Position numbers and translations under genes: made by a program. From assembly GCA_945829225.1 (NCBI GenBank), contig CALZTY010000022.1, forward strand, positions 1 through 37,311: a stretch of 37,311 bases of DNA, written 5' to 3'. Each line of letters opens with the position of its first letter. Position 1 is the first letter of the stretch. Shown here piece after piece: positions 1,000 to 10,306 of the stretch. Source of the DNA: an uncultured Bacteroidales bacterium. GTDB lineage: Bacteria > Bacteroidota > Bacteroidia > Bacteroidales > Muribaculaceae. The notes under the pieces were generated by a model. It made no database searches. It was not told where the DNA came from and was given only the letters and a program-made list of their open reading frames with translations.

Positions 1000-3057
1000 A
1001 TGAGTACGGAGATTTATAATTTTGACATAGTGGTGGACCGCCACGACACTTGCGCGACCAAAATCGAGGAAATGGATAACCGCTTCGGGCGGCACGACTT
1101 GCTGCCGCTGTGGATAGCGGATATGGACTTCGAGGCTTGTCCATGCATCATTGATGCCCTGCGGCGGCGCCTCGACCATGCGGTGCTGGGCTACACGACG
1201 GTGCCTGAGGAGTTTTGGCAGAGCATCACCGGATGGCTTCAGCGGCGCCACGGCTGGGCTGTGGACAGCGAGGAGGTGACGTTCATGCCAGGATTGAAGA
1301 AGGCTCTGAGCCTGTGTATCAACTACTTCAGCCGACCCGGCGACAATGTGGTGATACAGCCGCCGGTGTATCACTCCTTCCGCAGCGTCATTGAGGGCAA
1401 CGGGCGCAGGGTGGTCACCAATCCGCTCGTCGCCGATGCCCGAGGCAGGTATAGCATGGACTTGGAGGGCTTGGAGGCGGTGATCGAGCGCCATCAGCCG
1501 TCGATGATGATAGTGTGTAACCCCCACAATCCCATAGGAATACAATGGAGCGCCGAGACGTTGCGGCGCCTTGTCGACATATGTGCCGACAGGGGCGTGA
1601 CGTTCATCTCCGACGAGATATACGGCGATATGATGCTGGCGGGCAAGCGCCATATACCCACCGCATCGGTGTCGGAACGTGCTGCCGCCACGGTGGTGAC
1701 CCTGGGTGCGCCGTCGAAGACCTTCAACATCCCAGGTATAGTGAGCGCCTGGGCAGTGGTGAAGTCGGCGAGCCTGCGCGAGCCGTTCTACAACTGGCTG
1801 TCGGCGAGCGAATTCAACACGCCGCCGATAGCGGCGATGGTAGCCACGCAAGCCGCCTACAGCCGGGGAGAGGCGTGGCTCGACCAAGCGCTGGCATACT
1901 TGCAGGGCAATGTGGAGATGGTGGAGAAATACCTCGGCGAGCAACTGCCGGGGCTGTCGATGACGGTGCCCGATGCCTCCTTTGCCGTGTGGCTCGACTT
2001 CCGCAGCCTGGGCATGTCGCAGGAGCGACTGGTGGAGATGCTGGTCAATCGCTGCCACCTGGCGCTCAGCGACGGGGTGTCGTTTGGCGCTGAAGGCGAG
2101 GGATTTATGCGCATGAATATCGGAGTGCCGCGCACCATACTGCGCGAGGCTCTCGAGCGCCTGCGCCGGGGCATCGAGGCGATGCACCAGCCGGCAGACG
2201 AGGCAGCGGCAATCGCCGGCATCCCCTTTGTCAAGATGCAAGGCTTGGGCAACAACTTCGTGGTAGTGGACTGCATGGAGCGCCACCTGGAGGGGCTATC
2301 CACCCTCGCCGTGGAGATGAGCCGCCGCCACACCGGCATGGATACCGATGGCATCATCATCGTGCTGCCGTCGGAAGTCGCCGACTGCCGCATGCGCATC
2401 TTCAATGCCGACGGCTCGGAAGCGCAGATGTGTGGCAACGGCATACGCTGCGTGGCTAAATATGTGTATGACAGCAAATTAGTGGGCAAGCAGGGCATGA
2501 GCATCGAGACCCTCAGCGGCATCAAGCACGTGGAGGTGCACTGTGGCATCGACGGGCTGGTGGATACCGTCACCGTGGATATGGGCGTGCCGCAGACGGC
2601 AGCCGAGGCGGTGCCGGTGTGCTGCGCGGGCGAGGCGCTGATAGACAGCGAGGTGGATGTTGCCGGCAGGCGAGTGCGCCTCACCGCCGTATCGGTGGGC
2701 AACCCCCATGGGGTGGTCTTTGTCGACAATTTCAGCGACGAGATGGTCAGCGGCATGGGACCGCAATTAGAGCGCCACGCCATATGGCCCGAGCGTGCCA
2801 ACATCGAGTTTGTGCGCGTGGATGCGCCCGATGCCCTGTCGGTGCGCACCTGGGAGCGTGGCGCCGGCGAGACCATGGCATGCGGCACCGGCGCCTGCGC
2901 GGCAGCGACCGCCGCAGTGCTCACCGGGCGCGCCACATGGCCCATGACAGTGCGCCTGGTGGGTGGCAACCTGCATATTGACTGCGCGGACGGGCACCTG
3001 CTGATGACCGGACCGGCGACGACGCTCTACACCGGCACACACTGGGGTGGATGTTAA
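1000..3057 (+). CDS. dapF: Fusion of MalY/PatB-type PLP C-S lyase/aminotransferase with diaminopimelate epimerase
   Basis: This 685-residue protein joins two enzymes. Residues about 1-395 are a class I/II aminotransferase-fold PLP enzyme of the MalY/PatB (cystathionine beta-lyase) branch: early LPLWIADMDF motif, NPHNPIG, SDEIYGD, and the PLP lysine K240 in APSKTFNIPG. Residues about 408-685 are DapF, which interconverts LL- and meso-diaminopimelate for lysine and peptidoglycan; it starts IPFVKMQGLGNNFVVVD and has both catalytic cysteines, C478 in MCGNGIRC and C628 in ACGTGACA. The linker is only about 12 residues and there is no stop, frameshift or internal start between the parts. The first half could act as a C-S lyase or an aminotransferase; DAP pathways of other bacteria use a distinct aminotransferase, DapL, which this half does not obviously match. 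A weak -7-like TTACTTTG lies at 941-948. Confidence 0.92.
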   Translation: MSTEIYNFDIVVDRHDTCATKIEEMDNRFGRHDLLPLWIADMDFEACPCIIDALRRRLDHAVLGYTTVPEEFWQSITGWLQRRHGWAVDSEEVTFMPGLKKALSLCINYFSRPGDNVVIQPPVYHSFRSVIEGNGRRVVTNPLVADARGRYSMDLEGLEAVIERHQPSMMIVCNPHNPIGIQWSAETLRRLVDICADRGVTFISDEIYGDMMLAGKRHIPTASVSERAAATVVTLGAPSKTFNIPGIVSAWAVVKSASLREPFYNWLSASEFNTPPIAAMVATQAAYSRGEAWLDQALAYLQGNVEMVEKYLGEQLPGLSMTVPDASFAVWLDFRSLGMSQERLVEMLVNRCHLALSDGVSFGAEGEGFMRMNIGVPRTILREALERLRRGIEAMHQPADEAAAIAGIPFVKMQGLGNNFVVVDCMERHLEGLSTLAVEMSRRHTGMDTDGIIIVLPSEVADCRMRIFNADGSEAQMCGNGIRCVAKYVYDSKLVGKQGMSIETLSGIKHVEVHCGIDGLVDTVTVDMGVPQTAAEAVPVCCAGEALIDSEVDVAGRRVRLTAVSVGNPHGVVFVDNFSDEMVSGMGPQLERHAIWPERANIEFVRVDAPDALSVRTWERGAGETMACGTGACAAATAAVLTGRATWPMTVRLVGGNLHIDCADGHLLMTGPATTLYTGTHWGGC

Positions 3058-7199: not shown

Positions 7200-8519
7200 A
7201 TGAAGGTACTGAAATTTGGCGGCACCTCAGTGGGCACGGCACAGCGCATACAGCATGTCGCCCGCCTCGCCGTCGCTTCGGGACGCAATGTTGTGGTGCT
7301 CTCTGCCATGGCAGGCACCACCAATACACTTGTCGAAATTTCCGCTTATCTCTATAAGGGGAATGTGCCGGGCGCCCAGGAGACCCTGAACGCCTTGCGA
7401 CAGAAGTATGCCGGCGTGATAGCCGAGTTGTACGACAACGACGCCTCGCGCGAGCGAGCCACGGCGGTCACCGACCGTACTTTCAGCCTCATCGCCCACT
7501 TCATGGAGGGCGAGTTCACTGTTGCCGAGGAGAAGGAAGTGCTGTCGTGTGGCGAGTTGCTGTCGACGGCGCTGATGCATATCTACCTCGAGCAGATTGG
7601 TGTAAAGGTAGCATTGCTCCCGGCACTCGAGTATATGCGCACCGCCCAAGGCGGCGAGCCGGATATGAAATACATATCCTCGCGCCTGCGTCGACTCATC
7701 GATCTGGAGCCGGATGCCCAATTGTGGCTTACTCAGGGCTATATCTGCCGAAATGCTTATGGCGAAGTCGACAACTTGCGCCGCGGTGGCAGCGACTACT
7801 CAGCCTCTATCATCGGCGCCGCCCTCGGCGTCGAGGAAATACAGATTTGGACCGACATCGACGGCATGCACAACGGCGACCCACGCATCGTGAGCAACAC
7901 TCGCCCGGTGGAACATCTCCACTTTGAGGAAGCAGCCGAATTGGCTTACTTCGGAGCCAAAATCCTGCATCCCACCTGCGTGTTGCCTGCCAAACTCAGC
8001 AATATACCGGTGCGACTGCTCAACACCATGCAGCCCGAGGCGCGCGGCACCATCATCGCCAATTTTCCGCCCGACGGCACCATCAAGGCTGTCGCTGCCA
8101 AGGACAATATCACCGCCATCAAGATCAAATCGGGACGTATGCTCCTCGCTTACGGCTTCCTGCACAAGGTGTTTGAGATCTTTGACAAGCACCACACCGC
8201 CATCGACATGATGGCTACCAGCGAGGTGGGCGTGTCGCTCACTATCGATGATACCGACCATCTCGCCGCCATCGTTGACGAACTCAAGGGCTTCGGCACC
8301 GTCACCGTCGACTCCGACTTGGTCATCGTGTGCGTCGTAGGCGACTTCTCGGGCGAGCAAGGCAGCACCTACGGTGCTCACGTGGTCAATGCCCTCGAAG
8401 ATATCCCCGTGCGCATGATTTCCTACGGCGGCAGTAACTATAATATCAGCGTCGCTATCCGCGCCGTCGACAAGGAGCGCGCGCTCAACAGCCTCAACCA
8501 TAACCTCTTTGACCTATGA
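7200..8519 (+). CDS. lysC: Aspartate kinase
   Basis: This 439-residue monofunctional kinase phosphorylates aspartate, the first step to lysine/meso-DAP, threonine and methionine. It opens MKVLKFGGTSVG (nucleotide-binding KFGGTS) and carries the substrate motifs LSCGELLST, RGGSDYSA and WTDIDGM, followed by two C-terminal ACT regions (about 300-439) that usually give feedback inhibition by lysine or threonine. The architecture resembles E. coli LysC (AKIII). It overlaps the next gene by 4 nt (ATGA). The downstream pathway genes asd and dapF are also in this window but not in this operon. Confidence 0.95.
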   Translation: MKVLKFGGTSVGTAQRIQHVARLAVASGRNVVVLSAMAGTTNTLVEISAYLYKGNVPGAQETLNALRQKYAGVIAELYDNDASRERATAVTDRTFSLIAHFMEGEFTVAEEKEVLSCGELLSTALMHIYLEQIGVKVALLPALEYMRTAQGGEPDMKYISSRLRRLIDLEPDAQLWLTQGYICRNAYGEVDNLRRGGSDYSASIIGAALGVEEIQIWTDIDGMHNGDPRIVSNTRPVEHLHFEEAAELAYFGAKILHPTCVLPAKLSNIPVRLLNTMQPEARGTIIANFPPDGTIKAVAAKDNITAIKIKSGRMLLAYGFLHKVFEIFDKHHTAIDMMATSEVGVSLTIDDTDHLAAIVDELKGFGTVTVDSDLVIVCVVGDFSGEQGSTYGAHVVNALEDIPVRMISYGGSNYNISVAIRAVDKERALNSLNHNLFDL

Positions 8520-8809
8520 TCAAACACGTCGTTACCTTCAAACTTCGTGGCAGCGATGCCGAGCGCCACGCCGTCGCTACGCGCTTTGTGGAAGCCCTCA
8601 ACGCCCTGCCGGGCATCATTCCCGAACTCCGCACGATGGAGGCTGCGGTGAATATCAACCCTGCCGAGACCTGGGATGTGGTGCTTACCGCTACCGCCGA
8701 CACCGCCGCCGATGTCGCCGCTTACTCGGCACACCCCGCCCACGTGGCTGCCGTGGCTATCATTGCTCCTTACAAGGAGGCTCGCGCCTGTGTAGACTAC
8801 GAGGTGTGA
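8516..8809 (+). CDS. Stress-responsive alpha/beta-barrel (Dabb) domain protein
   Basis: This 97-residue protein matches the Dabb pattern: MIKHVVTFKLR at the start, LPGIIPELRTMEAAVNI, then the AYSAHPAHVA segment and terminal VDYEV. Dabb proteins are small dimeric barrels; functions vary and many are unassigned. The ATG overlaps the lysC stop by 4 nt, implying translational coupling, so it is the last gene of manA-ftsE-lysC-dabb. Its 3' end overlaps the opposing lipoprotein gene by 13 nt. Confidence 0.88.
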   Translation: MIKHVVTFKLRGSDAERHAVATRFVEALNALPGIIPELRTMEAAVNINPAETWDVVLTATADTAADVAAYSAHPAHVAAVAIIAPYKEARACVDYEV

Positions 8810-9192
8810 CGTCCTATCCATAGCCCGGTCGCTGCGGCGCCCAGTGCCGCCAATATCATCATCCATTTGCTAATACCCGTGGAGGGCTGTCGGCTCTCCT
8901 CGCTCTTGGCGTGCGCCTCCATAGTCGTCTCGACTGCCGTCGACGCCACTTGAGTCGCATCGCTTCTCACAGACACTCGCCCGGCGCTGTAAGTCACTCG
9001 CCGCCGTGGCGTGTCGATATATTCGACAGTCACCACGGGCGAGTCAACCTCGACGCGATAGTGTAGTGCGAGGGTGTCGTATCGTGTCACATTGTGATTT
9101 ACCGCTTCGTCGGTGCTCGTCGCCACACTGTGGCGCGAACTGCTGCAGCCGCTCATCGCGATTGCAGTCATTGCTATTACTATCGCTCGCAT
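8797..9192 (-). CDS. Small lipoprotein with C-terminal membrane segment, unimolecular-spanin-like
   Basis: From ATG 9192 the product has 131 residues: a lipoprotein signal MRAIVIAMTAIAMSG|C with lipidated C16, a 90-residue polar periplasmic stretch rich in S/T/V/R with a central beta-like VDSPVVTVEYIDTP, and a C-terminal hydrophobic helix W110-G127 ending RHTS. A lipid-anchored N-terminus plus a C-terminal transmembrane helix is the design of phage unimolecular spanins (T1 gp11 type), which join the outer and inner membranes in the last step of lysis. The start overlaps the end of the amidase gene by 13 nt, an arrangement common in lysis cassettes. An ATG at 9231 would bury the signal sequence, so 9192 is preferred. 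The spanin role is inference; a domesticated envelope protein is the alternative. Confidence 0.72.
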   Translation of the reverse strand: MRAIVIAMTAIAMSGCSSSRHSVATSTDEAVNHNVTRYDTLALHYRVEVDSPVVTVEYIDTPRRRVTYSAGRVSVRSDATQVASTAVETTMEAHAKSEESRQPSTGISKWMMILAALGAAATGLWIGRHTS

Positions 9193-9623
9193 AGGTCGGC
9201 ATATTCGGTTGTTGCATCGAAACATGGACACGCCTTGGCGGCAAAGTCCCTGTGTCCGCAGATTTTAGCCCCGGGATAGCGAGCGATAATATCGCCCAAG
9301 AGCCTTCGCAGAGCCGTGCGTTGCTCCGCGGTGCGCGTATCTGCCGGCGCCCCTCTGCCGTCGATACCACCACAATAAGCCACGCCGATGGATATGTGAT
9401 TATGCCCGGTGCAGTGCGCCCCGTCATCACCCTCGGGACGCCCTGCCTCGACGGTGCCGTCGAGTCGCACCACCCAATGATAGCCACAGCCTCGCCAGCC
9501 GAGGCTGCGATGATAGCGGTCGATGTCGGCAACGCCGATATCCTTGTCTGCCGCAGTAGCCGTACAATGAACGATAATCTCCTTGATGTCTCTTTTTGTC
9601 TTAAATGTGTCTTTCATAATCAT
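9180..9623 (-). CDS. N-acetylmuramoyl-L-alanine amidase, T7-lysozyme-like
   Basis: The 147-residue Amidase_2 protein would cut the bond between N-acetylmuramic acid and the stem peptide. Zinc ligands H19 (IIVHCTAT), H124 (CGHRD) and C132 (AKACPCFD) correspond to those of T7 lysozyme, and the HSIGV-like GHNHISIGVAYCGG and YHWVVRLDGTV segments are typical. There is no signal peptide, so export would need a holin or other route, as with phage endolysins. Such amidases occur widely in Bacteroidota genomes as prophage remnants or small cassettes. A second ATG 6 nt downstream (9617) is equally possible. It is divergent from the tRNA-Met gene and overlaps the spanin-like gene downstream. No holin is visible. 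Confidence 0.9.
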   Translation of the reverse strand: MIMKDTFKTKRDIKEIIVHCTATAADKDIGVADIDRYHRSLGWRGCGYHWVVRLDGTVEAGRPEGDDGAHCTGHNHISIGVAYCGGIDGRGAPADTRTAEQRTALRRLLGDIIARYPGAKICGHRDFAAKACPCFDATTEYADLCER

Positions 9624-10169: not shown

Positions 10170-10246
10170 ATATTTTTAACTATTTATAATACTTCTTTAA
10201 ACATTGATAATAGCTGTAAAACTGATGGTGGAAGGTCTGATGATTA

Positions 10247-10295
10247 GGAATTGGAGGTTGGAGGTTGGGAATTGGGAATTGGAGATAGCGAATTG
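10247..10295. repeat. Seven tandem heptamers
   Basis: Seven consecutive 7-bp units: GGAATTG, GAGGTTG, GAGGTTG, GGAATTG, GGAATTG, GAGATAG, CGAATTG. Consensus is GRRRTTG. Confidence 0.8.
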
Positions 10296-10306
10296 GCAGG
10301 CGATGT

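Follow-up and report, generated by a model that had tools for sequence, protein, structure and literature searches.

Sets of a holin, a peptidoglycan hydrolase and a spanin that lie among host genes and belong to no phage have been described as type 10 systems, with ChiWXYZ of Serratia and YenLC of Yersinia entomophaga as examples (excerpts of PMC10847048 and PMC13284979). In the Yersinia system the holin releases the endolysin and, once the wall has been cut, the outer membrane is acted upon by the spanin (excerpt of PMC10847048). The cases outside phages that are named in these excerpts come from Serratia, Yersinia, Salmonella and Clostridioides (PMC13284979, PMC10847048), and in titles and abstracts on u-spanins, type 10 secretion and holins in Bacteroidota or Muribaculaceae no such system appeared among the matches listed. 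For the class of u-spanins no physiological or biochemical data on function were available as of 2018 (excerpt of PMC6139136).

Here we describe the computational analysis of a gene pair from an uncultured bacterium of the Muribaculaceae, located in a stretch of 37,311 nucleotides (contig CALZTY010000022.1) that is called the window in the following. In our judgement the chances are a little better than even that the pair constitutes the endolysin and the u-spanin of a phage-derived lysis system, which is now a chromosomal trait of one species group within the genus. The features of the window are:

8516-8809, plus strand: Dabb-domain gene, converging with the u-spanin gene, 13 nt shared (8797-8809)
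8797..9192, minus strand: u-spanin-like lipoprotein, 131 aa, two membrane anchors
8806..8868, minus strand: predicted C-terminal transmembrane helix, residues 109-129
8935..9087, minus strand: predicted four-strand beta domain (AlphaFold model), residues 36-86
9145..9156, minus strand: lipobox MSGC, residues 13-16, with Cys16
9180..9192, minus strand: overlap of the amidase and lipoprotein genes, 13 nt
9180..9617, minus strand: T7-lysozyme-type N-acetylmuramoyl-L-alanine amidase (endolysin), 145 aa from the ATG at 9617
9180-9623, minus strand: the same reading frame from a longer start, the in-frame ATG at 9623, 147 aa
9715..9789, plus strand: tRNA-Met (CAT), divergent from the amidase

The amidase matches Amidase_2 of Pfam (E 9.2e-17) and the amidase family phrog_822 of PHROGs (E 5.8e-58), and its top match among solved structures is T7 lysozyme (E 1.6e-34; residues 4-135 of 145 covered). 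In 145-aa numbering it contains H17, Y46, H122, K128 and C130, which we take to be the positions of the zinc-binding and catalytic residues of T7 lysozyme. An earlier note on this DNA had proposed a T7-lysozyme-type amidase with the zinc ligands H19, H124 and C132, which are H17, H122 and C130 in the shorter numbering, and this proposal is borne out by the presence of an Amidase_2 domain with zinc ligands at these positions. Unlike T7 lysozyme, which also inhibits the RNA polymerase in T7, the amidase of the window is chromosomal. Inspection by eye gave no apparent N-terminal signal, and an amidase without such a signal needs a holin or another export route.

How closely does the partner resemble a u-spanin? 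Its gene overlaps the amidase gene by the 13 nt that the earlier note had reported, and its product combines a lipoprotein signal (by a relaxed rule), a predicted beta-rich centre, a predicted C-terminal transmembrane helix and an endolysin neighbour, which are all common to it and gp11 of phage T1 (excerpt of PMC6139136). The comparison with gp11 is one of layout, not of sequence, and the window lipoprotein has its own traits in the lipobox MSGC, the chromosomal location and relatives that often carry a cysteine. MSGC, including the Cys16 named before, passes the relaxed rule and fails the strict consensus [LVI][ASTVI][GAS]C (excerpt of PMC6139136), which is fitted by only 6 of the 21 partners at isolated loci (defined below). 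Between lipobox and helix there is no cysteine in the window lipoprotein, yet one is present in 12/21 isolated partners, and none of 58 catalogued u-spanins has a periplasmic cysteine (excerpt of PMC6139136). The C-terminal helix, placed at 110-127 by the earlier note, is predicted at residues 109-129 with a mean hydropathy of 1.79 across 17 residues, and the linker between the two anchors spans about 94 residues. From an alignment of 13 sequences including the window's own, AlphaFold modelled a signal helix, then a sheet of four strands at 36-86, low-confidence linkers and the helix at 109-129 (mean pLDDT 67.5, pTM 0.30), with a pLDDT of 82-96 in the 10-residue blocks within 41-80 and less at both edges of the beta domain. 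Searches for a family of the lipoprotein gave nothing convincing (best E 0.061 in Pfam, 0.012 in NCBIfam and 0.0079 in PHROGs), and a fold search with Foldseek in BFVD and PDB gave no match at E <= 0.001. A single-sequence search retrieved no credible match in phage records (best E 0.4), no confirmed homologue in viral contigs and matches in 10/49 genus genomes at E <= 0.01. Since so few homologues were found in this way, a test of layout and position was used instead.

This test was applied to the genus set of 49 genomes, one per species and the window's genome included, in which the amidase search (E <= 1e-15) detected 34 places in 26 genomes; the pairing was tested in the window and the 33 fetched loci. 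The test requires a frame of 95-230 aa that starts between 80 nt before and 260 nt behind the amidase stop and has a lipobox, a middle part that is not strongly hydrophobic, and a helix within the last 55 residues. Such a two-anchor protein lies behind 30 of the 34 genus amidases, as compared to 0/202 control positions at the ends of other genes of these loci, which rules out that the layout arises by chance from dense open reading frames. The u-spanin-like layout recognised in the earlier note was thereby found again across the genus. Neither of the two outcomes that the earlier note had named as refuting came about, as lipoproteins of this kind do occur together with amidases and a C-terminal helix is predicted. 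The four failures are two isolated loci in which no partner was seen (L107, L114) and two prophage-like loci (L124, L125); in the latter, overlapping frames after the amidase resemble, by eye, an embedded two-component spanin of the Rz/Rz1 type.

Beyond the genus loci, 22 of the 80 loci kept (of 135) from genome contigs passed the test. Some share their contig with a genus locus, and in two of the 22 (L063, L090) the distance from the amidase to the start of the partner is 169 and 232 nt. The test is crude, resting on hydropathy and a relaxed lipobox, and a partner visible by eye in L091 went undetected, so that the misses among genome contigs are upper bounds: up to 58/80 amidases (loci among L013-L092) are without recognised partner. 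In several of these a short upstream frame is related to a small prophage protein. Two contigs titled Staphylococcus sp. (L028) and Paenibacillus sp. (L071) carry amidases that group with those of Bacteroidales, and the assemblies are possibly mislabelled. Among viral contigs 11 of the 80 loci kept (of 130) passed the test, indicating that the arrangement occurs in contigs classed viral as well; two of these 11 loci (L144, L145) share 13 and 25 of 83 prophage reference proteins.

Clustering of the flanking genes divided the 34 genus loci into 11 prophage-like ones and 23 that are isolated among housekeeping genes. The partner is present in 21 of the 23 isolated loci and missing from two, which means that the pair is kept without phage genes, a check that the earlier note had suggested. 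By tblastn, ligA adjoins 10/23 isolated pairs and lysC two, those of the window and of L112. L112 and its public copy L050 also keep the neighbours of the window in unchanged order (Dabb, lysC, ftsE, manA). A tRNA-Met lies on the opposite strand 47-270 nt before the amidase match in 8/23 isolated and 0/11 prophage-like loci. When 94 neighbouring proteins from 22 isolated loci (the window left out) were scanned, Pfam returned LigA nine times and other housekeeping families in scattered fashion among the matches listed (25 of 104 families), and among the PHROG matches listed (25 of 42) no family was named structural, those listed being ligase, reductase, helicase, PhoH, ABC transporter and the like, or unnamed. 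As positive control, 21 proteins from prophage-like loci yielded tape-measure, tail and head families. In eight of the 23 isolated loci (L097, L102, L105, L107, L108, L109, L114, L118) fewer than 850 bases are available on one side, so that the call as isolated rests mainly on the other side. An amidase tree, tried as a means to split isolated from prophage types, was set aside with 39 of 97 inner branches open (139 columns, 100 rows); the window's row falls in no starred set.

Two further observations concern the window itself. A 685-aa frame at 1000-3057 (plus strand) matches an aminotransferase class I/II domain and diaminopimelate epimerase and is apparently a fusion of two lysine-pathway enzymes. 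Between the tRNA-Met and a GT25 gene, a repetitive ggaattggaggttgg-like stretch (10220-10300) is antisense to a frame reading NSQFPTSNLQF.

The genome of the window contains a second pair of amidase and two-anchor protein at a prophage-like locus (L120, G000:C21:1-15034). Directly upstream of it a 72-aa protein is encoded that may be the holin of that phage; for a relative, a weak match to DUF6249 was found (E 6e-4). That this prophage-like locus has its own pair bears on the idea that the isolated pair provides helper lysis for particles encoded elsewhere, such as a gene transfer agent, a tailocin or a contractile injection system lacking lysis genes of its own. Known systems do keep lysis genes off the main structural operon, for example FpGTA II of Faecalibacterium, whose lysis operon holds structural genes too (excerpt of PMC12946183). 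Phage_portal (PF04860), the one portal family searched, was found in no more than 7/49 genomes and 4/23 genomes with an isolated amidase, which as far as this family goes lends no support to a gene transfer agent. We regard helper lysis as improbable. The injection-system marker PF14065 was found in 0/49 genomes, with the control likewise silent.

How old is the isolated pair? It was found in 21/49 genus genomes, and the statement of the earlier note that such a pair is unusual consequently does not hold for this genus. In an unrooted FastTree phylogeny of ligA from 41 genomes, one branch (support 0.89) separates 28 genomes, 22 of which have an isolated amidase, from 13 genomes that have none; every isolated-amidase genome for which a placement was possible, 22 in total, sits within the group of 28. 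One genome (G041) is absent from the tree because no ligA was found at E <= 1e-100. Selection was assessed by comparing isolated loci with one another nine times, the window being involved in two of the comparisons. The pN/pS of the amidase is 0.22-0.43 and significantly below 1 in 9/9 comparisons, and that of the partner is 0.41-0.88 with p <0.05 in 7/9, the exceptions being L099/L100 and L095/L099; loci were reused, so the comparisons are not independent, no correction was applied to the p values, and saturation is close at many synonymous sites. Purifying selection is seen in both comparisons that involve the window. Compared with the amidase, the partner diverges at a much higher rate; spanins have been called extremely diverse (excerpt of PMC6139136).

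These data bear on the possibility, raised in the earlier note, that the pair is a prophage scar, in which a prophage next to a tRNA has decayed down to its final two lysis genes and these are devoid of function. The amidase does belong to phage families, the same kind of pair is found in prophage-like loci of the genus including the second copy in the window's own genome, and the tRNA-Met is 98 nt from the amidase. Integrases usually use the 3' end of tRNA genes, whereas the pair is on the 5' side. Moreover, purifying selection would not be expected of a dead remnant, the isolated pair occurs in too many of the genus genomes, and ligA or tRNA-Met adjoins it across diverged species. Finally, 30 chosen open reading frames of the window matched 11 PHROG families at 1e-10; those that have a name are neither structural nor integrase, and the others are unnamed. 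A functionless remnant is thus very improbable, and of the two origins that the earlier note had considered for an isolated lysis module we prefer a domesticated system. Its remark that integrase and structural genes are absent agrees with the named families matched by these reading frames; for the holin the remark applies to the window at most, and a candidate is encoded elsewhere in the genome.

In three isolated loci (L101, L111, L098) a membrane protein of 147-153 aa is encoded adjacent to the pair or about 2 kb from it. Two members of this holin-like group were tested; one matches PF05105 (Phage_holin_4_1) weakly (E 9.7e-4, 19.7 bits at a cut-off of 22.2), the other has no Pfam match, and neither has a PHROG match. 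A profile built from the proteins of the three loci detected a homologue in 30/49 genus genomes, including the window's own:

G000:C30:9272-9694: holin-like gene of the window's genome; the product has 156 aa, and two or more membrane stretches are predicted in it

The holin-like gene is present in 22/23 isolated-amidase genomes, G040 being the one without it, and in 8/26 others (Fisher p 3.7e-6, phylogeny ignored). Restricting the comparison to 33 good-quality genomes gave counts of 16/1/5/11 for holin-like gene and isolated amidase (Fisher p 2.3e-4), and with the prophage-type amidase no association was found (p 0.45). Pagel's test for holin-like gene and isolated amidase was marginal (p 0.046), which suggests that shared ancestry explains much of their co-occurrence. 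In 19/22 genomes the holin-like gene is on another contig than the pair and in 3/22 within about 2 kb; in the window's genome the two are at least 18 kb apart, these distances being lower bounds as the assemblies are drafts. In the latter genome the holin-like gene is about 2.1 kb from ligA (G000:C30:5168-9694), which in 10 other genus genomes is a neighbour of the amidase pair. No cluster of neighbours recurs in more than three of the 27 holin loci that were fetched. In the upstream regions of amidase and holin, TAnnTTTG-like boxes, presumably the Bacteroidota -7 box, can be seen by eye before many starts.

Across the family the holin-like gene was detected in 38/225 genomes at 1e-10, the genus included. 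Among 16 holin loci fetched from other genera, which represent 17 of the 22 places listed, five (L245, L246, L248, L249, L253) show the order holin-like gene, amidase, two-anchor protein. Two of them, L245 and L246, belong to a single genome and are almost identical. Of the prophage reference proteins, L248 shares 35, L253 shares 34, and L245, L246 and L249 share one each. The amidases of L245, L246 and L249 are 36-37% identical to that of the window. These cassettes have the same holin family, amidase and two-anchor protein in the same order and form one cluster, whereas the set of the window is dispersed and away from phage genes. Two further loci (L259, L260) have a holin in front of the amidase and no recognised spanin, in nine loci no amidase match was found beside the holin, and in G236:C69 the holin and amidase matches are about 35 nt apart.

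Could the pair serve the envelope without any lysis? The amidase might recycle or remodel peptidoglycan and the lipoprotein might tether both membranes, with no holin involved. Retention of the pair at housekeeping loci in one species group and the location of the holin-like gene on another contig in most genomes would fit such a role, and the many genome-contig amidases without recognised partner suggest that related amidases may serve otherwise. On the other hand, an amidase that has no apparent signal peptide would still require an export route, the gene order is that of phage cassettes, and the holin-like gene tracks the isolated amidase. We therefore regard a non-lytic envelope role as unlikely.

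How, then, might a phage-derived lysis system work from dispersed genes? Given the order of events in the Yersinia system, an amidase that appears leaderless and a two-anchor partner, we propose that the dispersed set acts likewise. The holin encoded elsewhere, G000:C30:9272-9694 in the window's genome, would open the inner membrane, whereupon the amidase could reach the periplasm and cut peptidoglycan. The lipoprotein, its N-terminal lipid inserted in the outer membrane and its C-terminal helix in the inner one, would then disrupt or fuse the two membranes. Cytoplasmic contents would escape, and the set would work like a type 10 secretion system or a programmed-lysis module. We infer that the three proteins cooperate in this manner, with lysis and some benefit from it as the presumed outcome. 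The set would resemble the type 10 systems in having a candidate holin, a hydrolase and a spanin-like protein outside a phage, the holin call resting on the weak Pfam match and the position in the cassettes of other genera. It differs in that the spanin is unimolecular, the hydrolase a T7-type amidase and the host a member of the Bacteroidota; in most genomes the three genes do not form one operon, the holin-like gene usually being found on a separate contig from the pair. It is conceivable, at somewhat less than even chances, that gut Bacteroidota possess a type 10-like secretion or altruistic lysis system, ancestral to the species group, in which the phage lysis cassette came apart into a solitary holin gene and an endolysin/u-spanin operon, which jointly release large cargo or the contents of whole cells.

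Only recently have sets of holin, endolysin and spanin outside phages been counted among the secretion systems. If true, a set inherited vertically within a gut family would constitute a route by which large proteins, vesicles or DNA are released in the gut, and would provide u-spanin-like proteins that serve no phage.
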